Below, piece by piece: positions 1 to 22,063 of a stretch of 22,794 nt of DNA. The notes below the pieces were generated by a model. That model saw only the letters and a list, made by a program, of their open reading frames with translations. It was not told the DNA's origin and did not search any database. The DNA comes from a virus. Each line of letters begins with the position of its first letter. Position 1 is the stretch's first letter. The DNA is taken from IMG/VR virus record IMGVR_UViG_3300044630_003177, positions 1 through 22,794 of that record; one strand, written 5' to 3'. The translations under genes and the position numbers were made by a program.

Positions 1-1
1 T

Positions 2-310
2 CTTGACCGTGACCAATCCTGCTGGCATTGTGGGGCTGATACAGACCTCATACCTCACCACAGGATAAACCGAGGCATGGGCGGTTCAAAAGCCCGCCAC
101 GAGCCTTCTAACATCATTGTGATGTGTTCTAGGGTCAATGGGCTGATGGAATCTGATCCGATCGTGGCAACTATGGCACGAGAGTTCGGTTGGAAACTTG
201 AATCATGGCAAAAACCTGAAGATGTGCCTGTGTATCATCTTGTAGAGGTGCAATGGTTCAAAATAGAAAAATACGAAAGGGTAGTTTATGAAAATAGGTT
301 CTCTATTTAG
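2..310 (+). CDS. HNH endonuclease, C-terminal part (5' end outside window)
   Basis: The reading frame is open from the first bases of the window, so the gene begins upstream. The visible start carries a CxxC knuckle (CWHCG), then a PHHRINRG histidine motif and further on IIVMCSRVNGLMES. This order of Cys pair, His-His-Arg and a downstream Cys...Asn is what small phage HNH nucleases show; HNH proteins nick or cut DNA using one metal ion. The last 40 residues are not recognisable. The stop lies inside the next gene, so the two overlap by 23 bases and are probably co-translated. A recombination-associated HNH protein is equally possible. The exact role (homing, packaging or replication nuclease) cannot be told from the fragment. 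Confidence 0.72.
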   Translation, partial: LDRDQSCWHCGADTDLIPHHRINRGMGGSKARHEPSNIIVMCSRVNGLMESDPIVATMAREFGWKLESWQKPEDVPVYHLVEVQWFKIEKYERVVYENRFSI

Positions 311-5570: not shown

Positions 5571-5795
5571 ATGTTAGAAGATCTACAAATTCCTGAACGC
5601 TCATACAACTGTAAAGTTGAGCAGCTCAAAGAAGAACTATCACCAAGTGACCACAAGATCCTGTTGGATGCTGTAATGAATCCGGCATGGACTCAAGTTG
5701 GTTTGCAGTCGGCTTTGCGTGAGAAGGGCATCATTTTGTCTGCTTCAACAATCAAGCGTCACCGAACGAGAGTATGTTCATGCTGGAAGATCTAA
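5571..5795 (+). CDS. Small helix-turn-helix protein, 74 aa
   Basis: ATG 5571 follows the strong AGGGGGAAG ribosome binding site. The core LSPSDHKILLDAVMNPAWTQVGLQSALREKGIILSASTIKRHRTRVCSCWKI reads as a compact helix-turn-helix (split here: DHKILLDAVM, VGLQSALREKG, SASTIKRHR) with a CxC tail. Proteins of this type, ending in RHRxxxCxC, usually sit directly before a metallophosphoesterase in actinophages, as here. Probably a DNA-binding protein; target unknown. The 3' end overlaps the next gene by 22 bases. Confidence 0.68.
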   Translation: MLEDLQIPERSYNCKVEQLKEELSPSDHKILLDAVMNPAWTQVGLQSALREKGIILSASTIKRHRTRVCSCWKI

Positions 5796-7871: not shown

Positions 7872-8586
7872 ACTGTTCGTCTTTGACCTAGACGATACCC
7901 TCGCCCCATCGAAGCAACCTATTCCGGTTGAGATCCAACACCTTTTGGTTCGTTTGGTTGAAAAGTATCAAGTCGCTATCCTGACTGGCGGGCAGTATCA
8001 GCAAGTGCGTAAGCAAGTGCTTGACCAGCTGCCAGATTCGGTTCGGTCACAAATAAATGTGTTCTCATGCTCGGGATCGCAATACGCTCTCGGTGACGGG
8101 AATGTGCAAACCGATCTGCTACTGCCAGAGGATGCTTCACGCATCAAAGATTTGGTCGAAAAAGTTGCTATCGAATTTGGTTATTGGTGTGACGATCCTG
8201 ATGGCCCGATCATTGAGGATCGGTTGAGTCAAATCACTTTCTCGGCACTTGGTCAGAACGCTTCACCCGAACGCAAATTCGGTTGGGATCGTAACCGTTC
8301 AAAGCGTCAAGCAATGGTTGATCGTTTGGTCAAGCTTGTGCCGGAATACAGTTTCACTATTGGCGGTAGCACGAGCATAGATGTAACGCTGCCTGGTCGC
8401 GACAAGCGGTTCGGTATGGAACGCATCCTTGAGCTGCTTTCGGTTGATCGGTTAGAAACCGTATTTATTGGTGATTCGTTTGAACCTTCTGGCAACGATT
8501 ATCCGGTTCTTGACTGTGGCGTGTTCTGCCTACAAGTGAACCGATGGGAAGATACCGCCGACTTGATGCGATCACTTGGTATCTGA
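7858..8586 (+). CDS. Phosphomannomutase-like HAD hydrolase
   Basis: This 242-residue protein matches the eukaryote-type (HAD) phosphomannomutase in length and motifs: FDLDDTLAPSK (Asp10/Asp12, the phosphorylated nucleophile and acid/base), AILTGGQY, EDRLSQITFSALGQNA, GGSTSIDVTLPGRDKRFGMERIL and FIGDSFEPSGNDYPV (HAD motif IV with Asp206 and Asp214). The enzyme shifts phosphate between C6 and C1 of mannose. ATG 7858 is preceded by GGAAGAC; earlier in-frame starts would lie deep inside the isomerase gene. A sugar-phosphate phosphatase of the same superfamily is the alternative. Pairing with the isomerase upstream argues strongly for mannose metabolism. Confidence 0.85.
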   Translation: MVATKLFVFDLDDTLAPSKQPIPVEIQHLLVRLVEKYQVAILTGGQYQQVRKQVLDQLPDSVRSQINVFSCSGSQYALGDGNVQTDLLLPEDASRIKDLVEKVAIEFGYWCDDPDGPIIEDRLSQITFSALGQNASPERKFGWDRNRSKRQAMVDRLVKLVPEYSFTIGGSTSIDVTLPGRDKRFGMERILELLSVDRLETVFIGDSFEPSGNDYPVLDCGVFCLQVNRWEDTADLMRSLGI

Positions 8587-8915
8587 TGGGTAAGTTTCCA
8601 AAACCGTGCCTAGACTGTGGCCGTCTAACAACACTCGGTAACCGATGCCAAGAACACAAACTTTTGGTCGAACGCCTACATGACGCTAAACGAGCGCAAA
8701 TAAAAAAAGAAACGGGTCAGTATTCTGGTGCATACCGGAAACGGGCAGCTTTGGTTCGCGCTACCGCTTTGGTTTGCCATTTATGCGGTGACGGGTTTCG
8801 GGCTTCTGATCCGTGGGTTGCTGACCATGTGGATCCGGCTACTCATGGCGATGAAGCTGAGTTGCGGGCAGCTCACCGTTCTTGTAACGCTAAACGGGGT
8901 AATAAACCGTTGTAA
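8586..8915 (+). CDS. HNH endonuclease, 109 aa
   Basis: The start overlaps the phosphomannomutase stop (TGATG). An N-terminal Cys/His cluster (PCLDCGRLTTLGNRCQEH, residues about 7-24) is followed by a basic helix and a complete HNH core: VCHLCGDGF (CxxC), ADHVDPATHGDEAELRAAHRSC and NAKRGNKPL. Order and spacing match phage HNH proteins, which in many genomes lie near the terminase and assist packaging. Here the island separates it from the terminase by almost 5 kb. The stop is immediately followed by the TTTGGT array. Confidence 0.87.
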   Translation: MGKFPKPCLDCGRLTTLGNRCQEHKLLVERLHDAKRAQIKKETGQYSGAYRKRAALVRATALVCHLCGDGFRASDPWVADHVDPATHGDEAELRAAHRSCNAKRGNKPL

Positions 8916-9200
8916 CATTTGGTCAAAATTTGGTCGGCATTTGGTTCGGTCATTTGGTCAAAATTTGGTAGATTTGGTTTAGCCGTCAAACCCATGCATG
9001 TAAACGCCCTGGTTTGGCGGTTTTGCCTTTTGGTTCGGTATTTGGTTCATTTGGTTTGGTTGAACATTTGGTCAAAATTTGGTTTTTTGGTTGATTTGGT
9101 TCGGTCAAGCATTTGGTTCGAATTTGGTCATTTCGTCATTTGGTTGAAATTTGGTTCTTTTGGTTATTTGGTTCGGTTTTGGTTCTTGATCAAATTTGGT
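8916..9200 (+). repeat. TTTGGT array, 22 copies, non-coding
   Basis: TTTGGT occurs 22 times in 285 bases on the + strand and hardly ever as its complement, giving extreme G/T strand asymmetry. A 19-mer CATTTGGTCAAAATTTGGT is present three times exactly (8916-8934, 8951-8969, 9065-9083). Spacing is irregular (about 5 to 12 bases), unlike CRISPR or a simple tandem repeat. It begins one base after the HNH stop codon. An interruption at 8981-9020 contains GCATGTAAACGC, also found before the late genes. Function unknown. Confidence 0.9.
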
Positions 9201-9333
9201 CACTTGGTCAAGCTCCGATAACCGCCCAGGCACGGGGCCGAAACCCCGAAGATTCACCCCGCCGGATCGCGCCCGTATTGCTCTAGCTGCCAACTTGCGG
9301 GGCATGCCCAGGCGGGAGCATGTTTGCGACACG
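9201..9333. other. C-rich spacer, no gene
   Basis: After the array the composition flips to C-rich. It contains CCGCCCAGG (9222-9230), a motif that returns four more times in the other two island spacers, a hairpin CGGGG/CCCCG (around 9233-9248) and a GCGACACGCC block (9326-9335) that is repeated before the second island promoter. I see no coding sequence here. Confidence 0.6.
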
Positions 9334-10381: not shown

Positions 10382-11137
10382 ATGAACACACAAACACACA
10401 CCGAAACCGATGCCGTGATTCTGGGCATGCTTACCGAAAACACGGGCAAAAGTTTTCTTGACTCCGGCGGGGCTTACGGGCGGAATTGGGAACGCAACCA
10501 GGCTAAGGGCGTTGAAGCTTTAGCCGAATTGCCCGCCGTCACTTTTTCGAACGGTTCGCCCGTAATCGCTATGTTCCCGTTCTTGCGTGAACACTTGGAA
10601 TTCGCTGCCGTTCTTGATTCGGCGTGGAGCGTGTTCGATGAAGCCCGCCCCGATGAATCGTGGCTAAGTAATCTCGAAGAATTTTTCGACACTCTAGGCG
10701 TTCCGGCAGAAGGGGAGTTCTATTCGGAAGCCCGTTGGTCACTCAACACTTACAATTCGGAATATTGCTTACTCGCCCAGACTCTACAATTTAGCTTTTT
10801 CGGTTTTGGCGGTAACGATTACATAGCTCTACAAATTCACGGCGGTTGCGATGTTCGGGGCGGTTACACGAAGCCCCGAATTTTCTTGATCAAAACTAGC
10901 CGTGAAGATTTCTATCTATCGGCGGAATCGGCACGGGTTACATGCTCTAGCTGCAACCTAGAAATAGATTTTTCACCTAACGGTTTAGAAATTGAAACTA
11001 GCAAAATGAAACCCGAAGAAGCCGAAAAATTTGAACGCCTAGAAATTCAAGAAATTCGTGAATGGTTCTGGGATGGCAACACCGAAAACACTTGCCCGAA
11101 TTGTGGCAACTCCGGCACGATCGCGGGGAGCAACTAG
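10382..11137 (+). CDS. Conserved phage protein of unknown function (NTGxxFLDSGGAYGRxWxRNQ family), 251 aa
   Basis: Near the N-terminus it carries LTENTGKSFLDSGGAYGR followed by NWERNQ (about 17-40). This segment I recognise from uncharacterised proteins of phages and large viruses of aquatic microbes; no function is established. The middle is acidic and aromatic-rich, and two cysteine pairs (CSSCNLEIDF about 184-193; CPNCGNSG about 239-246) can form a split zinc ribbon at the end. The gene starts six bases after the preceding stop, with GAAGGGAA upstream reading across that stop. Its stop overlaps the next GTG. Confidence 0.72.
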   Translation: MNTQTHTETDAVILGMLTENTGKSFLDSGGAYGRNWERNQAKGVEALAELPAVTFSNGSPVIAMFPFLREHLEFAAVLDSAWSVFDEARPDESWLSNLEEFFDTLGVPAEGEFYSEARWSLNTYNSEYCLLAQTLQFSFFGFGGNDYIALQIHGGCDVRGGYTKPRIFLIKTSREDFYLSAESARVTCSSCNLEIDFSPNGLEIETSKMKPEEAEKFERLEIQEIREWFWDGNTENTCPNCGNSGTIAGSN

Positions 11138-11640: not shown

Positions 11641-11890
11641 GAAAGTGACCCGCCCAGGGTGACCCGTGCCAAAAAAAACCGCTCTCAGCTGCGTGACCCC
11701 CGCCCGAAAAAAATGACCCCGCCGGCCGAAAATCGCACCCCCAAAAATTCGCCCCGCTGCCTAACCCGCCCCCAAAAATTTTCGCCATGATCGCGGGCAA
11801 AAATGACCCCCGCCAGAACCAAAAAAAGCCCCCAGAATCTCCGGCGAGTTCGCTCCCAAAATTTTCACCATGCCCCGCCCAGGCGACACG
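11641..11890. other. C-rich low-complexity spacer with TGACCC(C)GCC and CCGCCCAGG words
   Basis: No gene is seen. TGACCC occurs five times (11646, 11659, 11692, 11715 and 11803, approximate) and CCGCCCAGG twice (11650-11658 and 11875-11883), separated by A tracts. A long open frame on the - strand across this region has low-complexity translation and no ribosome binding site. The end shares GCGACACGCC (11883-11892) with the spacer before island operon 1. Confidence 0.65.
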
Positions 11891-11896
11891 CCCCCG

Positions 11897-11946
11897 AAAA
11901 AAAATTTGCGAAATAGTTGCACTTTTCAAAAGCCCGCCCCCAAAAT
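11897..11946 (+). promoter_or_regulatory. Island promoter 2 (A-tract, TTGCAC, CAAAAT)
   Basis: An eight-base A tract, TTTGCGAAATA, then TTGCAC (11917-11922), an 18-base spacer and CAAAAT (11941-11946). Each element matches promoter 1 in order and spacing, with the C run before the -10 also kept, so this is a diverged copy. The -35 is weaker than in promoter 1. Confidence 0.55.
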
Positions 11947-11987
11947 AGAAACACGGCACCGAAGCCGAAAAAACGAAGGGAACAAAA

Positions 11988-12089
11988 ATGAGCAACAAAA
12001 TCGCAACCGCACTCATGGCGGTAATCGCATTTTCACTAATCACCGCCACGCTCTCGCTAATGCTCTGGGCGTTCGGGCTAATCAAGTAA
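11988..12089 (+). CDS. Single-span membrane peptide, 33 aa
   Basis: ATG 11988 follows CGAAGGGAACAAAA. The peptide (IATALMAVIAFSLITATLSL, then MLWAFGLIK) is almost entirely hydrophobic, one or at most two short helices. It is the first gene of island operon 2, and the next gene's ribosome binding site starts just after the stop. Function unknown. Confidence 0.6.
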   Translation: MSNKIATALMAVIAFSLITATLSLMLWAFGLIK

Positions 12090-12115
12090 CCAAACAAAAC
12101 GAAGGGAATCAAAAA

Positions 12116-12892
12116 ATGCCAACTTACCAAGTAACCAGAACCGAAACCGTGACCGTTACGGCACGGAACGAAGAGCAAGCCGAAGAGTTCGCCATTGAGA
12201 AAATGCAAGAACTCCCTAACGGCGATTATGAAATTGAAGCCATTACGCCCGCCCCGAAATTCGCCGAAATCGTGGAAGCTCTGAACGCTCTGGGAGTGTC
12301 TGCCTATGTTGATGACTACAAAAACAACACTTACGATTTCATTCGCATGAGTTCCGTTGAGAGTCACCCCGATGATGACCCGAATCACTTTTTGCTTTTG
12401 CCGTCACTTGATGACGAAGAAGAGTTCAACGGGGTTGCCTATGAGATTTACACGAATGATTGCTACACCGAAAAAGCGTCATTCCCCGCCGAATTGAACA
12501 CCCGTGTTCTGGCGCAACTAATCGCCAAAAAGCTCCGTCAAATTGCTCCCGCCAAAATGGTTGCAAGCATGGAAGAAATCGGTTTTCTACTCAAGCAAGC
12601 GGGCTTAACCGTTAGCGTCGAATCGCAAGAATGGCGTGGCATGCCCGCATGGATTTCTATCGGCGAAACCGTGGATTTCTACGCCGATGGAACGCCAGAC
12701 TATTTCGCCGAATTCACGCTTTACCAGAACCTAAACGAAAACGGCGATGCCGTAGACGGCACGGGGTTTCACCTATGCCGTGGCGATGACGAAGCCGATG
12801 TAGTTCTACAAATTCCGAACATCCCCGCCATGCGTGTAGTGTCGCAAACTATTTGGGCTATGGCGCAAGTTGCTAAGGGCGTGACCGAATGA
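12116..12892 (+). CDS. Hypothetical protein, 258 aa
   Basis: ATG 12116 sits behind CGAAGGGAATCAAAAA, the same leader as the gene at 9434; the frame is open further upstream but that part is low-complexity C-rich sequence. The N-terminus (TYQVTRTETVTVTARNEEQAEEFAIEKMQEL) is a strand-turn-helix unit like that of the gene at 11229. The rest alternates acidic helices and strands (FAEIVEALNALGVSAYVDDYKNN, MEEIGFLLKQAGLTVSVESQEW, FAEFTLYQNLNENGDAVDG) and looks like two related halves: a helix ending in LNALGVSAYVDD resembles a later one ending in LKQAGLTVSVES, so an internal duplication is possible. No function recognised. Confidence 0.72.
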   Translation: MPTYQVTRTETVTVTARNEEQAEEFAIEKMQELPNGDYEIEAITPAPKFAEIVEALNALGVSAYVDDYKNNTYDFIRMSSVESHPDDDPNHFLLLPSLDDEEEFNGVAYEIYTNDCYTEKASFPAELNTRVLAQLIAKKLRQIAPAKMVASMEEIGFLLKQAGLTVSVESQEWRGMPAWISIGETVDFYADGTPDYFAEFTLYQNLNENGDAVDGTGFHLCRGDDEADVVLQIPNIPAMRVVSQTIWAMAQVAKGVTE

Positions 12893-13038: not shown

Positions 13039-13181
13039 CCGAAACCGAAACCGTAAAAGCCCTAGAAAAGTTGGCGCTTCAAATTGACGAACTGAGGGCG
13101 CAAATGCCCGAAGATTCAAAACGCTTAGAACAATTGCAGGATGCTTATTACCTAGTTCGGGATGCTATCGAAAACGAGTAG
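13035..13181 (+). CDS. Small coiled-coil protein, 48 aa
   Basis: ATG 13035 overlaps the preceding stop (ATGA). The protein is acidic and helical, with heptad-like hydrophobics (ALEKLALQIDELRAQM, RLEQLQDAYYLVRDAIENE), so a short coiled coil is likely. Last gene of island operon 2; a strong terminator follows 13 bases later. Function unknown. Confidence 0.62.
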   Translation: MTETETVKALEKLALQIDELRAQMPEDSKRLEQLQDAYYLVRDAIENE

Positions 13182-13194
13182 CCCCGCCAGAATC

Positions 13195-13226
13195 AACCCC
13201 CGCCCGAAACACGGCGGGGGTTTTTT
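13195..13226 (+). terminator. Intrinsic terminator of island operon 2
   Basis: AACCCCCGCC (13195-13204) pairs perfectly with GGCGGGGGTT (13213-13222) around an eight-base loop, followed by further T residues. Strong rho-independent terminator. Confidence 0.92.
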
Positions 13227-13483
13227 CATGCCCGCCACGGGGCGCATACGCCCGCCATGACCCCGCCACGGAGTGACCCCGCCCCCGTCACCCCGCCCGT
13301 GACCCCGAAGCTTCAACCCCGCCCCCGCCATGACCCGCCCAGGGTGCGCCCAGCTGCGGGGCCGGTGACCTAAAACGCCCCTAAACGCCCGCTAGACGGG
13401 TTTTCATAACCAAAACGGGGAATCACCCGCCCAGGCACACTCAACCCCGCCACGGGGCGCACACGCCCGCACCCCGCAGCTAT
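13227..13483. repeat. C-rich spacer with 25-bp direct repeat and CCGCCCAGG words
   Basis: A 25-base block around CCGCCACGGGGCGCA occurs at 13231-13255 and 13446-13470 with one mismatch (T/C). CCGCCCAGG occurs at 13335-13343 and 13427-13435, TGACCC four times. A bulged hairpin AAACGCCCG/CGGGTTTT lies at about 13382-13404. No coding sequence is seen. As the spacer before the terminase, it is also where a cos or pac site could lie, but I cannot identify one. Confidence 0.75.
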
Positions 13484-13584
13484 TCGAACAAAAATTCGCA
13501 TGTAAACGCTTACAAAATCGAAAAAGTGTTCGTTCGAACGGATTTTCGAAGGGGGGGGATGGGGCCAATCGAACAAATGTTCGA
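13484..13584. promoter_or_regulatory. LexA (SOS) box cluster before the late operon
   Basis: The actinobacterial LexA site is TCGAAC-N4-GTTCGA. A perfect match lies at 13569-13584 (spacer AAAT). Three poorer sites precede it: 13484-13499 (TCGAAC, AAAA, ATTCGC; 10 of 12), 13518-13533 (TCGAAA, AAGT, GTTCGT; 10 of 12) and 13534-13549 (TCGAAC, GGAT, TTTCGA; 11 of 12). The second and third abut. The terminase start is 84 bases beyond the perfect box, so LexA could hold the late promoter shut until DNA damage. Confidence 0.72.
13501..13514. promoter_or_regulatory. Palindrome TGTAAACGCTTACA
   Basis: Inverted repeat with a CG-containing centre, the general form of LacI/CcpA-family operators. A 12-of-14 match, TGTAAACTTTTACA, lies before the capsid gene (19518-19531). 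Embedded between the first two LexA-like sites. The cognate regulator is unknown. Confidence 0.5.
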
Positions 13585-13667
13585 AAGTAGCACACCCCGC
13601 CCGCCATAGAACGCACATTCCCGCAGTTCAGACCTTTTCGGGCTATGCTTGTGGTGAAGGGAGTTTT

Positions 13668-14117
13668 ATGCCTAATCCACCGAAACCGTTGGAGCAGAAA
13701 CGCTTGACGGGTAATCCTGGTAAACGAGCTTTGCCGAAAGATGGGGCGATTGTGGTGATTGCTCAGGTTGATAATCCTCAGCCGTTGCGACCGTTGCAGG
13801 ATGCGGGGTTGGCCTTTTGGGATGAGGCTTGGGGTAAGGGTCAGTTGTGGTTGGGTCGCACGGATAAGTGGCTTGTGCAGCTGACGGCTGAGATGTTTGA
13901 TGAGCGTGAGGAGTTGCGGGGTATTGTTGCTGACCGGACTGCTGTGGGGGATAAGGATGCTTGGCGTGATCGTAGGCAGTTGCGTGACCTTGAGCGTTCG
14001 ATTGTTGCGAACTTGTCGTTGTTGGCTTGGACTCCTGTGGATCGTTCTCGTTATGGGTTGGCTGAGGTGAAGGCTAAGTCGAAGTTGGCGGAGTTTATGG
14101 AGAAGCATGGCAATTAG
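13668..14117 (+). CDS. terS: Terminase small subunit (P27 family)
   Basis: This 149-residue protein recognises the packaging start on concatemeric phage DNA and hands it to the large subunit. The opening PNPPKPLEQKRLTGNPGKRALPKD is diagnostic of the P27 (HK97-like) small terminase family, followed by LQDAGLAFWDEAWGKG and a long helical region (VQLTAEMFDEREELRGIV, RDRRQLRDLERSIVANLS) ending in RYGLAEVKAKSKLAEFM. ATG 13668 follows GAAGGGAG. The large subunit lies downstream but is separated by an adenine methyltransferase. First gene after the LexA-box cluster; a -10-like TATGCT at 13644-13649 has no convincing -35. Confidence 0.92.
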   Translation: MPNPPKPLEQKRLTGNPGKRALPKDGAIVVIAQVDNPQPLRPLQDAGLAFWDEAWGKGQLWLGRTDKWLVQLTAEMFDEREELRGIVADRTAVGDKDAWRDRRQLRDLERSIVANLSLLAWTPVDRSRYGLAEVKAKSKLAEFMEKHGN

Positions 14118-14679
14118 TAATTTTCCGACTAAAACATATGATGTTATTTACGCTGACCCGCCGTGGCATTTTGGCAGTAAATTCAAAGTTGGGACTGCGG
14201 GCAAAGAACAACAGTCTTTGCAAGAATTTCAGTATCCAACTATGTCTGACTTGGAGCTAAAAACCTTTTTTGAAAATCAAGTAGCAAAGTTGCCTAATGA
14301 AAATGCAGTAATGATCATGTGGACAACTGATGCACATTTGCCTTTAGCCATTGAGTTAGGCCACTTAGCTGGATTTACTTACAAAACCGTTGCCTTTATT
14401 TGGAACAAGAAAACTAGCACAAATAAGCAAGTTTGCTTTATGGGAACTTGGACAATGAAAGGCTCAGAAATTGCTTTATTGTTTACCAAAGGTTCTGCAC
14501 ATAAATTACTCAAAGCCCGTAATGTTAGACAACTTGTTGAAGCAGAAAGAAAAAAACATTCTCAAAAGCCACAAGAAGTAAGAACCCGCATTGAAACAAT
14601 GTTTCCAGATGTGAGCCGTATTGAGTTATTCGCTAGAGATCACTATGAAGGTTGGGATGTCTGGGGTAATGAAATCTAA
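14107..14679 (+). CDS. MT-A70-type adenine-N6 DNA methyltransferase
   Basis: This 190-residue protein has YDVIYADPPWHFGSK near the N-terminus (DPPW catalytic motif, residues about 17-20), then MIMWTTDAHLPLAIELGHLAGF, VAFIWNKK and SRIELFARDHYEGWDVWGNE at the end, all typical of MT-A70-like phage adenine methyltransferases, which transfer methyl from AdoMet to N6 of adenine. The gene is clearly more A/T-rich than the terminase genes on both sides and uses A/T-ending codons. It overlaps terS by 11 bases and terL by 11 bases. Composition and position between the two terminase subunits indicate a recent insertion (moron). A role in escaping restriction is likely. Confidence 0.9.
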   Translation: MAISNFPTKTYDVIYADPPWHFGSKFKVGTAGKEQQSLQEFQYPTMSDLELKTFFENQVAKLPNENAVMIMWTTDAHLPLAIELGHLAGFTYKTVAFIWNKKTSTNKQVCFMGTWTMKGSEIALLFTKGSAHKLLKARNVRQLVEAERKKHSQKPQEVRTRIETMFPDVSRIELFARDHYEGWDVWGNEI

Positions 14680-16192
14680 GGCTTGGCCTCCTGCCTGGCT
14701 GACTCCTGTTCCTGAGCCAGCGATTGCGTCTGGTAAGGGTGAGTCTGTTTTAGAGTTTGCCGAGATTTTTGGCATCATCACTAAGGATTCGATTGCGGGT
14801 CGTGCAGGTTCGCCGTTGGTGTTGCGTGAGTGGCAGAAGGATTTGCTGAGGCATGTGTTTGCTCGTGGTGACGATGGTGGGTTGCGGCACCGTATAAACC
14901 TGATCGGCATGCCCCGCAAACAGGGCAAGTCGGCTCTTGCGTCTACGCTCGGCGTTTACAGTTTGTATGCTGCAGGTATCAAGGGTGCGGAAGTGTATTC
15001 GTGTGCAGCTGACCGTGACCAGGCTCGTATCGTGTTTGCTGAAGCTAAACGCATGGTTGAAGCGTCACCGGATCTGATGAGCATGGCGAAGCTTTACCGC
15101 GACGCTATTGAAATTCCTGAGATGAACTCGGTGTATCGTGTGCTTTCGTCTGAGGCTTTCACGAAGGAAGGCCTTTCACCGACTGCTGTGATCTTCGATG
15201 AGTTGCATGCACAGCCGAACCGCGAACTGTTCGATGTTATGTCGCTTGCTCAGGGTGCGCGTGGCTCTATGGCTACTTTGATTGCGATTACTACTGCTGG
15301 TGTCAAATCGGACAGCACGGGTCAAGACTCTATTTGTTACTCCTTATATCAGTATGGGCAGAAGGTTGCTCGTGGCGAAATAGATGACCCGTCATTCTTT
15401 ATGGCTTGGTGGGAAGCTCCGCAAGAAGCTGATCACAGGTTGCAGGAAACTTGGGAGATCGCTAACCCTGGTCTGGGTGACATTTGTGCATTGTCGGACT
15501 TTGAATCGTCTGTGCGTAGAACGCCAGAGGCAGAGTTTCGCACGAAGCGTTGCAACCAATGGGTTTCGTCACAAATGTCTTGGTTGCCGACTGGCACTTG
15601 GGATGCTTGCGAAACGGTGCAACAGATTGACGCTGACGCTGAGTATGTTCTCGGCTTTGACGGTTCGTTCAATGGTGACACGACTGTGATTGTGGGTTGC
15701 CGGATTCCAACGAACGAGGAAGAGAAACCGCACCTGTTTCTTGTGAAGGCTTGGGAGAAACCTGCCGAGTCTGATGATTCGTGGCGTGTGGACATTCAGG
15801 ATGCAGAAAACGCCATTCTTGACTTTTGTGGCAGGTTCAAGGTTCGTGAGGTTGCTTGTGACCCGTTCCGTTGGCAACGCTCTATGGAAGTGTTGCAGGA
15901 TGCTGGTGTGCCGATTGTTGAATGGCCGTCTACTTCCGCGAAACGCATGGTTGTTGCTTGTGCATCTTTCTATGACGCTGTGTTGGAAGAACGCATCACG
16001 CATGACGGTAATCCGATGATTGCCCGTCACCTTGATAACGCTGTTGTAAAGATGGACAATCTGGGGCCGCGAATCGTAAAAGAGAACCGTGGTTCTAATC
16101 GCCGGATTGACGCTGCTGTAGCTGCAGTCATAGCGTATGACAGATCGGGCAGTAGAATAGAAGAGGCAGTCGTGCCAGGCTTTTACATTTAG
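14669..16192 (+). CDS. terL: Terminase large subunit (HK97-like)
   Basis: This 507-residue protein is the ATP-driven DNA packaging motor and nuclease. The N-terminal ATPase has Walker A INLIGMPRKQGKSALAS (about 76-92), Walker B AVIFDELHA (173-181) and the coupling segment LIAITTAG (204-211). The nuclease domain starts at LGFDGSFNGDTT (Asp331) and ends with RRIDAAVAAVIAYDR, which supplies a further catalytic Asp. ATG 14669 is used, with GGGG four bases upstream, since the MKSKAWPPAW start fits the family and earlier in-frame starts lie inside the methyltransferase gene. Works with terS and the portal. Confidence 0.95.
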   Translation: MKSKAWPPAWLTPVPEPAIASGKGESVLEFAEIFGIITKDSIAGRAGSPLVLREWQKDLLRHVFARGDDGGLRHRINLIGMPRKQGKSALASTLGVYSLYAAGIKGAEVYSCAADRDQARIVFAEAKRMVEASPDLMSMAKLYRDAIEIPEMNSVYRVLSSEAFTKEGLSPTAVIFDELHAQPNRELFDVMSLAQGARGSMATLIAITTAGVKSDSTGQDSICYSLYQYGQKVARGEIDDPSFFMAWWEAPQEADHRLQETWEIANPGLGDICALSDFESSVRRTPEAEFRTKRCNQWVSSQMSWLPTGTWDACETVQQIDADAEYVLGFDGSFNGDTTVIVGCRIPTNEEEKPHLFLVKAWEKPAESDDSWRVDIQDAENAILDFCGRFKVREVACDPFRWQRSMEVLQDAGVPIVEWPSTSAKRMVVACASFYDAVLEERITHDGNPMIARHLDNAVVKMDNLGPRIVKENRGSNRRIDAAVAAVIAYDRSGSRIEEAVVPGFYI

Positions 16193-16199
16193 GTGGACT

Positions 16200-16337
16200 A
16201 TGTTTGCAACAATCATTCAGGTCATAGGCATAGGCGTTGTTGCGTTTGGTGTCGGGATCGCTTATCCACCAGCGGGCATTGTAGTCGCAGGTGTCGGACT
16301 GGTGTTGTTCGGTTTGGCATTGGAACGGAGTAAGTAA
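16200..16337 (+). CDS. Two-helix membrane protein, 45 aa
   Basis: ATG 16200 follows AGGTGG seven bases after the terminase stop. Glycine/valine-rich hydrophobic segments (TIIQVIGIGVVAFGVGIAY and GIVVAGVGLVLFGLAL) flank a PPA turn, and the end is charged (ERSK). The stop overlaps the portal start (TAATG). A small membrane protein between terminase and portal is seen in various actinophages with no known role. Confidence 0.7.
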   Translation: MFATIIQVIGIGVVAFGVGIAYPPAGIVVAGVGLVLFGLALERSK

Positions 16338-17677
16338 TGCTCGGAAATCTTTTTGGTGAAACACGCACTTTGTCGTTCCAGCAAGTTTTTGCTAACGGTG
16401 AAGATTTTGCTACTGAAACGCAAGCTGGTGTTGTTATCAACGCTGACACCGCTTACAAGATTGTTGCTTTCTTTTCGGCTGTTTCGCTCTATTCGGACAC
16501 AATCTCTACTCTTCCGGTAGACGCTTACATTCGCTTAGACGGTGACCGTAAACCTTACCGACCTAAACCAAGTTGGATAGATCAGCCTGATGTGGACATT
16601 AGTCGTCAGGCACATTACGGTCAGGTCGTAACATCTTTGCTCGTTAGCGGTAACTCCTACACTCGTGTGTATCGTGACCGTAACGGCGATGTGGTGAACC
16701 TTGTTGTTCTTGACCCAAATAAAGTCAAGATTGAGCGTTCAGCTTTGGGCCGTAAGACTTTTATCGTAGATGGTGAGCCTAAACCACTAACGAGCAAAGA
16801 AGTGTTGCACATCATTGACTTGGCTATCCCTGGATCGCTTTACGGTGCAAGCCGTGTAGAGAAACTGAAGGATGCTCTTGGTGTGGCTACTGCGTTGCAA
16901 AACTTTGCAGCTCGGTTCTTTCAGCAGGGCGCAACCACGAACGGTGTTATTGAGTTCCCTGGTAACTTGATCCCTGAACAGTTGCGAGCTTTGCAGGAAG
17001 GCTTTGATAGCCGTCACCGTGGCTGGCGCAAAGCGCACAAGACAGGTGTTCTGTTCGGTGGCGCAACTTACAAGCAGACCAGCGTTCCTAACGATCAGGC
17101 ACAGTTCTTAGAGTCACGCCGTTTTGCTGTCGAAGAGATGGCTCGTGCGTTCAACATCCCGCTGCACATGATGGGTATTCCAGGCACTAACACTTACGCT
17201 TCGGTTGAACAAAACAACTTGCAATGGATTAGCCACTCGCTACGCCCTATCTTGGAAAAGATTGAATGGTCGTATTCACAGTTGCTTCCTACGACTGCGT
17301 TTATCAAGTTCAACTTCAACGCTCTTCTTCGCGGTGACCTACAATCCCGTGCTACCGCTTACAGCATCATGCTTCAGCAGGGCGCACAAACAATCAACGA
17401 GGTTCGCAAGGCTGAGGATCTACCGCCGATTGACGGTGGTGACACTCCACGAGTGCCTCTAGCCAATGTTGGCTTACCAGCTGCAGACTTGCAAGAAACA
17501 GCAATGCGTGTAGACATGGCTGACAAACTTATCAAGAGTGGCTTTGACCCGTCATCGGTTCTTGAAGCTCTGAAGTTGCCACAGATTGAGTATGCAGAAA
17601 CCCCAGAGGTTGAGATGCAAGAGGGCGAAATGGACAGCCCTGACGATGAAACGATGGAAGAGGAAGAGGTGCAGTAA
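16337..17677 (+). CDS. Portal protein (HK97 family)
   Basis: This 446-residue protein forms the dodecameric channel at the capsid vertex through which DNA enters. Typical segments are NADTAYKIVAFFSAVSLYSDTISTLPV (about 35-61), SLLVSGNSYTRVYRDRNGDV, LDPNKVKI, LHIIDLAIPGSLYGASRVEKLKDALG, FAARFFQQGATTNGVIEFPG, EEMARAFNIPLHMMGIPG and FNFNALLRGDLQSRATAYSIMLQQGAQTINEVR. Length is normal for the family. The C-terminal tail is strongly acidic (EVEMQEGEMDSPDDETMEEEE). ATG overlaps the preceding stop (TAATG). The next gene starts in the same manner. Confidence 0.95.
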   Translation: MLGNLFGETRTLSFQQVFANGEDFATETQAGVVINADTAYKIVAFFSAVSLYSDTISTLPVDAYIRLDGDRKPYRPKPSWIDQPDVDISRQAHYGQVVTSLLVSGNSYTRVYRDRNGDVVNLVVLDPNKVKIERSALGRKTFIVDGEPKPLTSKEVLHIIDLAIPGSLYGASRVEKLKDALGVATALQNFAARFFQQGATTNGVIEFPGNLIPEQLRALQEGFDSRHRGWRKAHKTGVLFGGATYKQTSVPNDQAQFLESRRFAVEEMARAFNIPLHMMGIPGTNTYASVEQNNLQWISHSLRPILEKIEWSYSQLLPTTAFIKFNFNALLRGDLQSRATAYSIMLQQGAQTINEVRKAEDLPPIDGGDTPRVPLANVGLPAADLQETAMRVDMADKLIKSGFDPSSVLEALKLPQIEYAETPEVEMQEGEMDSPDDETMEEEEVQ

Positions 17678-17934
17678 TGCTTTCGACCGGACAAACAACT
17701 GTGGGAACTGTTGCTGTGCAACTTGACGGCACAAGTAACAGCAACTGGCAGATTCACATTTCTAACGATGACAACACCGACACTCTTTACATCGGCAACG
17801 GTGATGTTACTTCCTCTACTGGTTTGCGTCTTTACAAACTTGAAAAACTTGTTTTGAACATGAACCCAGGCGAAACCTTGCATGTCATTTCGACTAAGGC
17901 AGGTCACACTATTAGTTGGATGAAACAGGTCTAA
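17677..17934 (+). CDS. Small beta-rich virion-type protein, 85 aa
   Basis: Starts in the stop of the portal gene (TAATG) and ends in the start of the protease gene. Sequence is almost all beta (TVGTVAVQLDGTSNSNWQIHISN, TDTLYIGNGDVTSSTGLRLYKLEKLVLNM, ETLHVISTKAGHTISWMKQ), a jelly-roll or immunoglobulin-like pattern. Proteins with this YIGNxDVTxxxGxxL signature occur in head modules of many actinophages; decoration or head-completion has been suggested by position only. Function here is inferred. Confidence 0.78.
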   Translation: MLSTGQTTVGTVAVQLDGTSNSNWQIHISNDDNTDTLYIGNGDVTSSTGLRLYKLEKLVLNMNPGETLHVISTKAGHTISWMKQV

Positions 17935-19259
17935 TGCCATACTTTATTACCGATACTGCTGAGGGTTGCTCTGGTTGGGCAACAATCAAAGACGATGGCG
18001 AAGTTATTGGCTGTCACACCACTAAACAGGCCGCTGTAGATCAGATGGTTGCTGTGTCAATCGCTGAAGACATGGAGCCAGGTGGAGAGCGTAGCGAACA
18101 GCGAGCTTTGAATGTCGCCCCGCCCGAATACATGAGAGCTGCAGCTCGCCGTGGTTTGAAGTATTACGAAGAAGGCAAAGGCGGTGCAGGTCTAGTCCCT
18201 GCAACAATCCGCGAAGCCCGTGAGATGGCAGCTGGTCGTGTTTCAGACGATAAATGGGTGCGCCTATCGGCATGGATCGCCCGCCACCTACCAGACCTAG
18301 ATGCCCCTAAAAACAAGAACGCTACCGATCCTGCCTACCCTGGTGCCGGATTGGTCGCTCATCTACTTTGGGGATCAGGGCCAACAAAGCGTCAGGCTCT
18401 TCGCGTCAAAGCATACGCTGACTCAGTTGTTGCTAGGCTAGAAGCAAGTGGTGAAAGAGAAACTATGACTGAAACTAATGAACAGCGCAACAAGTGGCTT
18501 TCGGCTTCTTGGGCGATCAAGGCTCGCATTGAGGGTCTAACACCAGAGGCTCGCTCTGTTGGCAAGTATGAGGTTCGCACTTTGCCTTCAGAGTTTGAGA
18601 TTCGTGACGAGAGCGATGGCATGACCATTAGTGGCTATGCTGCTGTGTTCAACAGCGATAGCGAACCGCTACCGTTCATTGAGCGAATCGCACCTGGTGC
18701 TTTCCAGCGTTCACTAAAGTCCCGTAACGAGATCAAGTTGCTTTGGAATCACGACAGCGGTGAGCCTATGGCTTCGATGCGTGGTGGCAGTCTACGCCTT
18801 TGGGAAGATGACCGTGGCTTGGCTTACGAGGCTACTTTGGCGAACACTACTCGTGGTCGTGATGTTGCCGAACTGATCCGTAGCAAAGTTATTGACGCTA
18901 TGAGCTTTGGCTTCAATGTCATCAAAGACAACTGGGATGAAAGAGGTAATCGCACTTTGGAGTCAGTCAGAATTCACGAAATTTCAGTCGTTAGCTATCC
19001 GGCATATACGGCCACTTCGGGAACTGTGCAGGTTCGCTCGGCTGAAGGATCAGAAGAACAGCCATCGGGCATTGACGCTGAAGCTCTGGCTGACGCTCTG
19101 CTTCGCCTAGAGTCCGGTGAAGAACTAGAAGCCGAACACGCTCAAATCATCAAGGATGTTGTTTCAAAGCTTGAGAAAACTCCAGAGGTTGAGGAAGTAT
19201 CTGGCAACATCCTAGACTTGAAGCAGAAACAACTTGACCTGCTACTGAAGAGAGTGTAA
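17934..19259 (+). CDS. Prohead protease with N-terminal accessory domain
   Basis: This 441-residue protein joins two parts. Residues 1-45 (YFITDTAEGCSGWATIKDDGE, GCHTTKQAAVDQMVAVSIAE) and 62-170 (PPEYMRAAARRGLKYYEEGKG, VSDDKWVRLSAWIARHLPDLD, YPGAGLVAHLLWG) form conserved phage domains of unknown role. Residues 215-370 are the HK97-type serine protease: GYAAVFNSDSEPLPFIERIAPGAF, LLWNHDS (His273), DAMSFGF (Ser324), and VRIHEISVVSYPAY (His348). It cleaves scaffold and the capsid N-terminus during maturation. The C-terminus is acidic and helical. An internal ATG 18465 (codon 178) with GAAAGAG upstream could give the protease alone (264 residues). Confidence 0.9.
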   Translation: MPYFITDTAEGCSGWATIKDDGEVIGCHTTKQAAVDQMVAVSIAEDMEPGGERSEQRALNVAPPEYMRAAARRGLKYYEEGKGGAGLVPATIREAREMAAGRVSDDKWVRLSAWIARHLPDLDAPKNKNATDPAYPGAGLVAHLLWGSGPTKRQALRVKAYADSVVARLEASGERETMTETNEQRNKWLSASWAIKARIEGLTPEARSVGKYEVRTLPSEFEIRDESDGMTISGYAAVFNSDSEPLPFIERIAPGAFQRSLKSRNEIKLLWNHDSGEPMASMRGGSLRLWEDDRGLAYEATLANTTRGRDVAELIRSKVIDAMSFGFNVIKDNWDERGNRTLESVRIHEISVVSYPAYTATSGTVQVRSAEGSEEQPSGIDAEALADALLRLESGEELEAEHAQIIKDVVSKLEKTPEVEEVSGNILDLKQKQLDLLLKRV

Positions 19260-19432
19260 TGGCTACCAAAGAACAAATCATCGAAGCAATCTTGAAGGTT
19301 GCTGGAGATCCTACTGTTGGAGTTATCAAAGACTTGGCTGAAGATTTTGCTGATGCCATCATTTCACTTGACGCACCCGTTGCTAAGGAAACTAAAGAAA
19401 CTCGTGTAGTCAAGTCTGAAGAAACTCGCTAA
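19259..19432 (+). CDS. Hypothetical protein, 57 aa
   Basis: ATG 19259 overlaps the protease stop (TAATG). The protein is helical (TKEQIIEAILKVAGDPTVGVIKDLAEDFADAI) with a Lys/Glu/Thr-rich tail (KETKETRVVKSEETR). Placement between protease and capsid is where scaffolding-type or short accessory proteins lie, but length and sequence do not decide. A terminator follows 20 bases after the stop. Confidence 0.68.
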   Translation: MATKEQIIEAILKVAGDPTVGVIKDLAEDFADAIISLDAPVAKETKETRVVKSEETR

Positions 19433-19452
19433 CGCCCCCATAAAGCGAGTTC

Positions 19453-19490
19453 ACCCCCACAGGTTACCCCCTTTCCCTGTGGGGGTTCTT
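19453..19490 (+). terminator. Intrinsic terminator before the capsid gene
   Basis: ACCCCCACAGG (19453-19463) pairs with CCTGTGGGGGT (19476-19486), loop 12 bases, followed by TTCTTCTTT. It separates the packaging/protease genes from the capsid gene. Confidence 0.86.
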
Positions 19491-19517
19491 CTTTACCGTG
19501 ACGCATACTTTTCGTTC

Positions 19518-19594
19518 TGTAAACTTTTACATGTAGTTGAGTGTTAGCACCGCTACCTTGTCTGTTGAGTGTCAGCACCGCAGAATCCTTTATT
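19518..19594 (+). promoter_or_regulatory. Capsid gene control region: palindrome, direct repeats, promoter
   Basis: Contents: the palindrome TGTAAACTTTTACA (19518-19531); an 18-mer GTTGAGTGTnAGCACCGC repeated at 19536-19553 and 19564-19581 (28-base period); and two possible promoters, TTGTCT (19558-19563)-17-CAGAAT (19581-19586) or TTGAGT (19565-19570)-18-TTTATT (19589-19594). CAGAAT is the -10 of island promoter 1, which favours the first. The terminator upstream requires a promoter here. Confidence 0.55.
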
Positions 19595-19615
19595 CAATTC
19601 CAATTAGGAGATCCA

Positions 19616-20785
19616 ATGTCTGAATTTGCAAAATTTCAGGCGGAAGCTCGCGCTAAGGCTTGGGAAGCTGCAAAGGTTATTCTTGACCGTGCTGCTACTG
19701 AGAAGCGTGACCTAACCGCAGAAGAGAACGAGTCATACACTCGCATCTCTGCTGAACTTGACGAGCGTGCTGCGCTTATTGAGTCGGCTAACCAACTAGC
19801 TGCCCGCGAAGAGCGAGCTGCTGAAGCTGCTGCTTCGTTCATTCCATCGAACACCCGTTCGGCAGATGACAGCGACATCCTTCGTGCAATCGCACTAGGT
19901 GAGCAGCGTGGACACGAGTTCGCTTCTGAGAAGCGCACCCTTGTTCCAAGCGACAACACCGTTCCAAAGTCGTTCTACAACCAGGTATTCCAGATTGCCC
20001 GTCTTGCTGGCCCAATGCTGGATGTTTCGGATGTCATCAACACCACTACTGGTGAGTCGCTGACCATCCCAACCCTGACTGCTCGTTCGACCGCAACCAT
20101 CAAGGGTGCTGGAACAGCAATCTCAGAGTCAGAGCCAACCTTCAGCTCGATCACTCTAGGTGCGTTCAAGTATTCATTCCTCGTTCCTGTTGCTAACGAA
20201 CTGCTAACTGACGCTGGTTTCGACCTGTCGGCACTTATCGCAGAACAAGCTGGTAACGCTATCGGTTTTGCCGTCAACAACGGTCTAACCAACGGAACTG
20301 GAACTGTTGAACCTACTGGTATCCTCACCGCTGCAGCTTCGGCTGTTACTGGTGGAACTGGTGTATCCGGTGCAGCAACCTACGAGAACCTCGTAGACCT
20401 TGTTTACGCACTTGACGGTCAGGCTCGTCTACTACCTGGCGTGGGCTTCCTCGCTGGCAAGTCGGCTATCGCTTCGATCCGCAAGATCAAGGATGGTGCA
20501 GGTAACTACATCTTCACCCCTGCCACCGCTGGTCAGCCTGACCAGATCCTCGGCTACCGCCTAATTGAGAACCCTGCTATGCCAGCTGTTGCTACCAGCG
20601 CAAAGTCGGTTCTTTTCGGTCACCTACCTTCATACAAGGTTCGCACCGCTGGTGGAATCCAGGTCGCTCAGTCGGGCGACTACGCTTTCGACAAGGATGT
20701 GACCACTTTCCGTGTCACGATGCGCGTTGATGGTAACCTAACCCACTCAGCTCACGCTGTATGGTTCAAGGGTGGCGCAAGCTAA
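19616..20785 (+). CDS. Major capsid protein (HK97 fold)
   Basis: This 389-residue protein builds the icosahedral head. Residues 1-75 are a charged alpha-helical region (FQAEARAKAWEAAKVILDRAA, ELDERAALIESANQLAARE), the scaffold-like delta domain removed by the protease. The mature part has LVPSDNTVPKSFYNQVFQIAR, TIPTLTARSTATIKG (E-loop region), FKYSFLVPVANELLTDA, AIGFAVNNGLTNGTGTVEPTGIL and GYRLIENPAMP, all typical of HK97-type capsids. ATG 19616 follows AGGAG. Codon choice is visibly more C-ending than in neighbouring genes, as expected for very high expression. Terminators at 19453 and 20801 isolate it as a single-gene transcription unit. Confidence 0.95.
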   Translation: MSEFAKFQAEARAKAWEAAKVILDRAATEKRDLTAEENESYTRISAELDERAALIESANQLAAREERAAEAAASFIPSNTRSADDSDILRAIALGEQRGHEFASEKRTLVPSDNTVPKSFYNQVFQIARLAGPMLDVSDVINTTTGESLTIPTLTARSTATIKGAGTAISESEPTFSSITLGAFKYSFLVPVANELLTDAGFDLSALIAEQAGNAIGFAVNNGLTNGTGTVEPTGILTAAASAVTGGTGVSGAATYENLVDLVYALDGQARLLPGVGFLAGKSAIASIRKIKDGAGNYIFTPATAGQPDQILGYRLIENPAMPAVATSAKSVLFGHLPSYKVRTAGGIQVAQSGDYAFDKDVTTFRVTMRVDGNLTHSAHAVWFKGGAS

Positions 20786-20800
20786 AACTTGCCCAAGACT

Positions 20801-20845
20801 GAACACCCCTCAGAGTTGCGTAGGACTCTGGGGGGTGTTCTTTTT
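20801..20845 (+). terminator. Intrinsic terminator after the capsid gene
   Basis: A 16-base-pair stem, GAACACCCCTCAGAGT (20801-20816) with ACTCTGGGGGGTGTTC (20825-20840), one G-U pair, eight-base loop, then TTTTT. One of the strongest terminators in the window. Confidence 0.93.
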
Positions 20846-20881
20846 GCTAGGCTAGAACCACCTACTACGAAAGGTTCTTCA

Positions 20882-22063
20882 ATGTCTAAAAAGGGTGCAG
20901 TAACGGTTTGGTCGAATAGCCCGTATCAGCCAACGGGTTACGGTGTTCAGGCTGGTTATCTTGTTGATCGTCTTGTGCGTGATGGCTATGCGACCGCAGC
21001 TATTTCTAACTATGGTGTTGAGGGTCGCAACACGACTTTAGAAACACCACACGGTGTCATCCCTCACTATGCTCGTGGCTTTGAACCTTACTCTAACGAT
21101 GTAGGGCCAATGAACCACCACCACTTCCTAAGTCAGCACCCTGGTCTAACTGACCTAATGATCACGCTCTACGATGTTTGGGTGTTGAAGGGTGCAGCTT
21201 GGGACAGGATGCGCCGGATCGCCTCATGGACTCCACTAGACCACATCACGATGCCACCAAAGGTTGAGGCGTGGTTGCGTAAACCTAATGTGACACCGAT
21301 CGCTATGTCACCGCATGGTCAGCGTCAAATGCAGGAGAAAGGCATTGACTGTCTTTATGTGCCACACGCTATTGACACGAAAGCGATGAAACCGACTTAC
21401 GAGATCAGCGGTGTGCCTACTCGTCAGTATCTAAGTTTCAACGATGATGACTTTGTGGTTGGCATGGTAGCTGCGAACAAAGCATCTGGACTTGTTCACC
21501 GTAAAGCGTTTAGCGAGAACCTGCTTGCTTTTAGCATCTTTCTAAAAGACCACCCTGATGCCAAGCTTTACCTACACACCGATCCGCTTGGTGCCGCAGG
21601 TGGCTGGAATCTGTTGAAGCTTTGCGAAGCTGTAGGTATTCCTCAAGACTCTGTGCGATTCCCTAACCTTGTTGATTACCGTTACGGTATGGAAACCGAT
21701 CAGGTGGCCGCTTTGATGACGGCTATGGATGTAATGCTTGTCACTTCTTACGGTGAAGGCTTTGGCGTTCCCACGGTTGAGGCCCAGGCAGTCGGAACTC
21801 GTGTCATCGGTTCTAATTGGGCAGCTACCCCTGACCTTGTTGCTGAAGATTGCTTCCTTGTCGAAGGGCAACCAACTTGGGATAGTGGTCAGGATGCTTG
21901 GTGGTCTATTCCGCTTGTGCCATCTATCGTGGATGCTTTGAACAAAGCGTATGACGCACCTAGAGGTCGCTCACAAGTTTGCATTGACTTTGCACAACAG
22001 TTTGATGTTGAGGCTGTTTGGAAAAAGCATTGGATTCCTGCTCTGGATGCGTTGCTTGCATGA
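20882..22063 (+). CDS. Glycosyltransferase, GT4-like (GT-B fold)
   Basis: This 393-residue protein transfers a sugar from an activated donor. The N-terminal half has VWSNSPYQPTGYGVQAGYLVDRL (acceptor-side Rossmann domain), and the C-terminal half the donor site SYGEGFGVPTVEAQAVGTRVIGSNWAATPDLV (about 287-318), the glycine-rich/E-x7-E signature of GT4 enzymes. ATG 20882 follows AAAGG; in-frame sequence upstream overlaps the terminator and is not coding. The gene follows the capsid terminator, so it needs either read-through or a promoter I do not see. The acceptor could be a virion protein, DNA base or host surface; position next to the capsid gene favours virion glycosylation, by inference. 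Confidence 0.85.
   Translation: MSKKGAVTVWSNSPYQPTGYGVQAGYLVDRLVRDGYATAAISNYGVEGRNTTLETPHGVIPHYARGFEPYSNDVGPMNHHHFLSQHPGLTDLMITLYDVWVLKGAAWDRMRRIASWTPLDHITMPPKVEAWLRKPNVTPIAMSPHGQRQMQEKGIDCLYVPHAIDTKAMKPTYEISGVPTRQYLSFNDDDFVVGMVAANKASGLVHRKAFSENLLAFSIFLKDHPDAKLYLHTDPLGAAGGWNLLKLCEAVGIPQDSVRFPNLVDYRYGMETDQVAALMTAMDVMLVTSYGEGFGVPTVEAQAVGTRVIGSNWAATPDLVAEDCFLVEGQPTWDSGQDAWWSIPLVPSIVDALNKAYDAPRGRSQVCIDFAQQFDVEAVWKKHWIPALDALLA

Follow-up and report, generated by a model that had tools for sequence, protein, structure and literature searches.

LexA-like palindromes at the cos end of a phage genome match the SOS box of its probable host family, Microbacteriaceae

The stretch analysed, called the window here, is IMG/VR record IMGVR_UViG_3300044630_003177, positions 1–22,794 (22,794 nt). 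Every convincing gene lies on the plus strand, and family scans of the window gave a rightward order in which a right arm with cytosine methylase, replication-initiation protein (phrog_270), RusA and exonuclease is followed by terS, terL, portal, protease, capsid and glycosyltransferases. The family scans placed the terminase small-subunit gene terS (phrog_83) at 13668–14117 and the large-subunit gene terL (phrog_9) at 14621–16192, both on the plus strand. A second contig, G001, is 100% identical to window 13606–21189, and its other end overlaps window 1–127, also at 100%; given these overlaps at both ends, the window and G001 together make up a circle of about 33.8 kb, with the joined genome ends lying inside the window contig. 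Megablast of the window against phage records gave no match, Rfam and tRNA scans of the window found none, and the right-arm proteins encoded at 10382–11137 and 11870–12892 recovered no relatives when used as baits for right-end contigs. Phage relatives are plentiful in metagenomes. Between terS and terL lies a DNA methyltransferase gene (14107–14679; phrog_359, MT-A70-like in our reading), which we regard as an insertion in the window phage and G001, since BLAST alignments of five relatives skip from about 14114 to 14676. The cytosine methylase (288–1734) appears to be split over the overlapping frames 288–845 and 616–1734, the latter with no Pfam match, which may reflect a frameshift or a broken gene.

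Upstream of terS, four palindromes conform to the 16-bp actinobacterial LexA (SOS) box pattern TCGAAC-N4-GTTCGA or come close to it. Box 1 (TCGAACAAAAATTCGC, 13484–13499) and box 2 (TCGAAAAAGTGTTCGT, 13518–13533) match 10 of the 12 specified positions, box 3 (TCGAACGGATTTTCGA, 13534–13549) abuts box 2 and matches 11, and box 4 (TCGAACAAATGTTCGA, 13569–13584) matches all 12; no strand is assigned to any of the four. The cluster is genuine and well outside what chance would produce: among 2000 dinucleotide shuffles of the intergenic stretch, not one yielded four or more matches (mean, 0.012 matches with up to two mismatches), and none of 300 shuffles of the whole window placed four matches within 101 bp. 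The earlier note on this DNA had described the clustered sites, their scores and the abutting pair at 13518 and 13534, all of which are borne out. It had also proposed looking for further boxes, and within the window a fifth site (11/12) was found at 19847, inside the major capsid gene; it recurs at similar places in relatives and is thus probably driven by codon usage. Another palindrome, TGTAAACGCTTACA (13501–13514, no strand), lies between boxes 1 and 2 and is the sole exact match to its pattern in the window, and none of 100 shuffles reached the window's number of matches with up to two mismatches. It presumably resembles a LacI-family or cre operator, and we rejected it as a conserved partner of the boxes, as it was found beyond the window's own copies only in L164.

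The boxes lie at a genome end. Among 41 contigs bearing TerS, 20 start at one identical base, corresponding to window 13606 and located 17 nt before a conserved GCANTTCA; four others begin 7, 22, 30 or 32 nt ahead of this motif, 13 run through it or begin farther off, and four lack it. These 41 are the 44 TerS loci minus L033, L046 and L047, whose matches begin inside the gene; the extra letters preceding the start base in L011 and L014 are presumably Illumina adapter. Of the 19 far ends inspected, five extend unmistakably to the right genome end: four terminate immediately ahead of the overhang and the fifth contains it. Taken together, the shared start base and the right-end stops place a cos overhang of about 11–12 nt, approximately ACCCCGCCCGCC and probably 3' protruding, at 13594–13605 on the plus strand, with independent contigs sharing fixed physical ends at one base. 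All four boxes fall within the last 111 nt of the right genome end. On the plus strand, a poly-G element of the cos region (GGGGGGGGATGGGG, 13551–13564) was recognized by comparison with cos-spanning relatives, in which GGGGAGTGGG is followed by CACCCCGCC at nearly constant spacing, and boxes 3 and 4 flank it. At the left genome end, the plus-strand element GCAGTTCAGACC (13623–13634) is kept in 13 of 13 aligned cos regions, with GC..TTCA invariant. The boxes hence occupy the right end of the genome, standing on both sides of the conserved poly-G/cos element, with terS on the other side of cos. The cos site had been overlooked in the earlier note, which placed the boxes in front of the late genes; they are indeed the final non-coding elements ahead of terS, yet the genome is cut at cos between the two.

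The same motif occurs in the probable host group. Of 60 Microbacteriaceae genomes, 34 contain TCGAACANNTGTTCGA and one contains a control pattern; this is the family of G030, a metagenome-assembled genome titled Microbacteriaceae. Twenty host loci were collected and ten of the adjacent proteins were scanned for families, four giving no family and one LAGLIDADG. Genes beside the motif include imuA' (NF058630; two), DNA polymerase III alpha/error-prone polymerase (two), Rv2578c radical SAM (three), an IMS (Y-family) polymerase and a DUF222-HNH protein, and several of these gene types are LexA targets in mycobacteria. In G030, near-matches lie upstream of lexA, and two of the three motif sites are on phage-like contigs. 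The exact 16-mer of box 4 is present at imuA' in G066, a Microbacteriaceae chromosome of 1,760,810 bp. Judged from these motif matches before known SOS genes, the four-box motif is the LexA box of the probable host family, the family being known only through relatives of the phage, and the identity of the sites proposed in the earlier note holds in this respect.

A putative -10 element of terS, TATGCT (TAGGCT in others), was located at 13644–13649 on the plus strand, with TA..CT invariant in 13 aligned sequences. It lies 18 nt before the terS ATG and 59 nt downstream of the end of box 4, beyond cos, and is common to box-bearing and box-free relatives. In L035, L132 and L154, the ATG follows the -10 element by 6–8 nt, a spacing that would suit leaderless transcripts. 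A sigma-70 promoter scan of 13150–13750 found none, and so none over the boxes. A candidate intrinsic terminator that would close the right-arm transcription unit (13195–13222, plus strand; a 10-pair stem followed by a T run) is weak when taken alone, shuffles averaging 1.2 such matches.

Two systems in which LexA directly controls phage genes serve as references. According to the passages cited, the late promoter P3 of the Bacillus phage GIL01 carries tandem LexA boxes, is controlled by LexA plus gp7 and activated by gp6, and has no dedicated phage repressor (PMC6182141). The window resembles GIL01 in its tandem boxes before late genes and in the use of host LexA as the switch, LexA binding being a prediction here. 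In these passages, however, the GIL01 boxes are contained in the promoter, following its -35 element, whereas those of the window adjoin cos and overlap no late promoter; lysogeny has been demonstrated for GIL01, whereas the window phage is known from its sequence and no lysogeny gene was found. In Streptomyces venezuelae, the prophage genes vnz_21525, vnz_21545 and vnz_21550 have LexA boxes 123–182 bp before their start codons and are induced 190- to 526-fold (PMC9380542); distance alone is thus no bar to LexA control in the window. The likeness is that an actinobacterial LexA acts directly at phage genes, but the S. venezuelae case is a predicted chromosomal prophage cluster of tail-fibre and hypothetical genes, with no relation to cos in the passages of that source.

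We compared 26 right ends, comprising the window, 5 close relatives and 20 others (L034 covering only 60 nt and L148 106 nt; near-duplicates L132/L142, L041/L042 and L136/L154 included), and where the overhang motif was absent the end was placed by a fixed offset. All five relatives with a TerS identity of at least 82% and a visible right end (L008, L009, L010, L012 and L016) keep one or two boxes at a fixed distance from cos. With positions counted along the final 130 nt, an outer box begins at 63–64 in all five, and an inner box begins at 105–106 in every one but L016, which has lost it; the window has its inner box at 105 and outer boxes at 20, 54 and 70. These boxes persist while the surrounding non-coding DNA diverges. 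None of the 20 more distant right ends contains a box with up to two mismatches, and most of them keep the poly-G. Several relatives without boxes at cos carry the palindrome in another non-coding gap, 50–250 nt upstream of a small-gene operon's promoter region; in some of these relatives, an AATYTGGTC-like repeat array lies next to it. That the motif was gained at two distinct non-coding locations suggests that it is itself under selection. The strict core CGAACANNTGTTCG occurs 14 times across 41 viral records, 11 of which contain it, and the control pattern does not occur; we read 11 of these sites as lying in non-coding gaps and three (in G099 and G107) as lying in coding DNA. Over 28 relative records, counts with up to two mismatches amounted to 51 by our sum, against 45 for the control pattern, so that only strict or clustered sites carry weight, and we rejected genome-wide counts at this threshold as evidence. 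A pattern search for poly-G plus box returned one match, already known.

No repressor of the HTH_3 (cI-type) or S24 kind and no tyrosine integrase was detected in 29 viral records, many of them fragments, the sole resolvase match being below threshold. G008 is the closest complete relative, its ends overlapping with small differences, and no convincing repressor was found in it by PHROGs searches of 10 mid-genome genes and Pfam searches of 27 right-arm genes and one mid-genome gene. The remark in the earlier note that no phage repressor is visible in the window thus extends, for the cI (HTH_3) and S24 types, to G008 and 28 other viral records. The temperate setting that it assumed finds no such backing, given the missing integrase in these 29 records. 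The nearest cultured relative, phiPsal1 (MG835450; L281), with 59.9% identity in TerL and 48% in portal, comes from Pontimonas salivibrio (Microbacteriaceae) and is described as lytic, with no integration seen, in the passages cited (PMC6106888). An episomal prophage state may nevertheless exist in the window phage. phiPsal1 is similar to the window phage in gene order, end motifs and a Microbacteriaceae host; it differs in that the final 130 nt at its right end are free of boxes and in that cI/cro-like HTH proteins are annotated in it. Within its coding DNA at 8039–8259, phiPsal1 has three LexA-like sites (8039, 8211 and 8244; two of them perfect) in about 220 bp, at the junction of glycosyltransferase and methyltransferase genes.

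The explanation towards which we lean, if only just, is that the cluster would be an operator array for host LexA, lying at the right terminus of the linear genome in a cos phage that infects aquatic Microbacteriaceae. Once the genome ends have joined in the cell, the four boxes, occupied by LexA dimers, would mask the poly-G/cos element together with the DNA leading up to the terS promoter, and the packaging/late junction would be held inactive while the SOS response is off. LexA self-cleavage triggered by RecA, after outside damage or damage from phage replication, would then release the junction. On our best reading of the motifs, host LexA would make the cos/terS junction SOS-responsive, its output being either terS and late transcription or the access of terminase to cos; precedent, by analogy, favours the former and the geometry of the site the latter. 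The more specific version in which packaging itself is gated, with LexA dimers flanking and covering poly-G/cos and blocking terminase cutting until LexA is destroyed, appears improbable. The proposal of the earlier note that late genes are silenced by LexA stands in part: the motif is that of the host family and no cI/S24 repressor was found, but no promoter overlaps the boxes and the terS -10 element is kept in relatives without them. These last two points count against the operator reading in general, as do the lack of any detected lysogeny gene, the box-free right end of phiPsal1 and its cI/cro-like annotations.

The same palindrome might instead have been adopted by a phage-encoded regulator, the candidate being a 74-aa HTH protein (5571–5795) with a weak HTH_32 match that is present in 18 of 27 records. 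The cI/cro-like proteins annotated in phiPsal1 would fit such a regulator, and in G016 and G019 the outer base pair is altered symmetrically (CCGAAC..GTTCGG and GCGAAC..GTTCGC), which makes a symmetric dimer the likely binder, whatever its identity. However, the 74-aa protein is a core gene that also occurs in the large records G011, G020, G021 and G025, which have no strict box; its presence does not track the boxes, and we rejected it as the cognate regulator. As no HTH_3 or S24 protein was found in the 29 records and the motif is the host LexA box, we consider a phage regulator unlikely. Likewise rather unlikely is a packaging signal, in which the palindromes would be subgroup-specific small-terminase sites near cos (cosB-like) and their likeness to LexA boxes a coincidence. 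The boxes do bracket the poly-G, the inner one lies in a poly-G-to-cos spacer of nearly constant length, outer and inner boxes hold their distance from cos in close relatives, and box-free relatives often have an AAATTCT-like sequence at the same place. Yet an element of this kind should be common to phages with the same terminase and cos, and the boxes are missing from all 20 distant right ends, though most share poly-G and overhang; several distant relatives carry the palindrome away from cos, and the motif is identical to the host LexA box.

It is quite improbable that the boxes are inert, being relics or motifs that drift without regulating anything in this phage. Boxes 1–3 deviate from the full pattern and in part occur only in this phage, and box number and place shift quickly between relatives, as drift would predict; against this stand the failure of all 2000 shuffles to yield such a cluster, the retention of boxes amid diverging non-coding DNA and the recurrence of similar sites in non-coding gaps of relatives.

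Under the LexA-operator reading, the damage alarm of the host may decide when the phage begins to make and fill particles. Host LexA also takes part in the control of CTXphi and other phages, as proposed here; CTXphi differs in being filamentous, in having its own repressor and in not being packaged by a terminase at cos. Phages run by LexA are already known and, in the passages on GIL01, the boxes are on promoters; LexA boxes around cos would make packaging, thought to be controlled by the phage alone, answer to host DNA damage. If packaging were gated, the damage response would time DNA packaging itself and not, or not only, transcription. Judged by titles and the openings of abstracts, no report of LexA boxes at a cos site was found among the papers listed. 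The host family has cultured members and a clear LexA box, which makes the idea testable in vitro.

Other repeated elements were seen in these phages. Many relatives have, ahead of the promoter of their right-arm small-gene operon, a further operator-like sequence, GTTAYCAAATTGTTAYC or the same sequence inverted, and elements of this type are near boxes in L224, L225, L227, L230, L016 and L199. Repeats of the TTGTGGATAA type follow a LexA-like pair in G027 and G028 (L228 and L229); we take them to resemble DnaA boxes, which would suit an origin there. In the window, a dense array of ATTTGGTC-like repeats at 8914–9210 follows an HNH gene and may be a replication origin or partition site; similar arrays occur in relatives, some of them beside LexA-like boxes.
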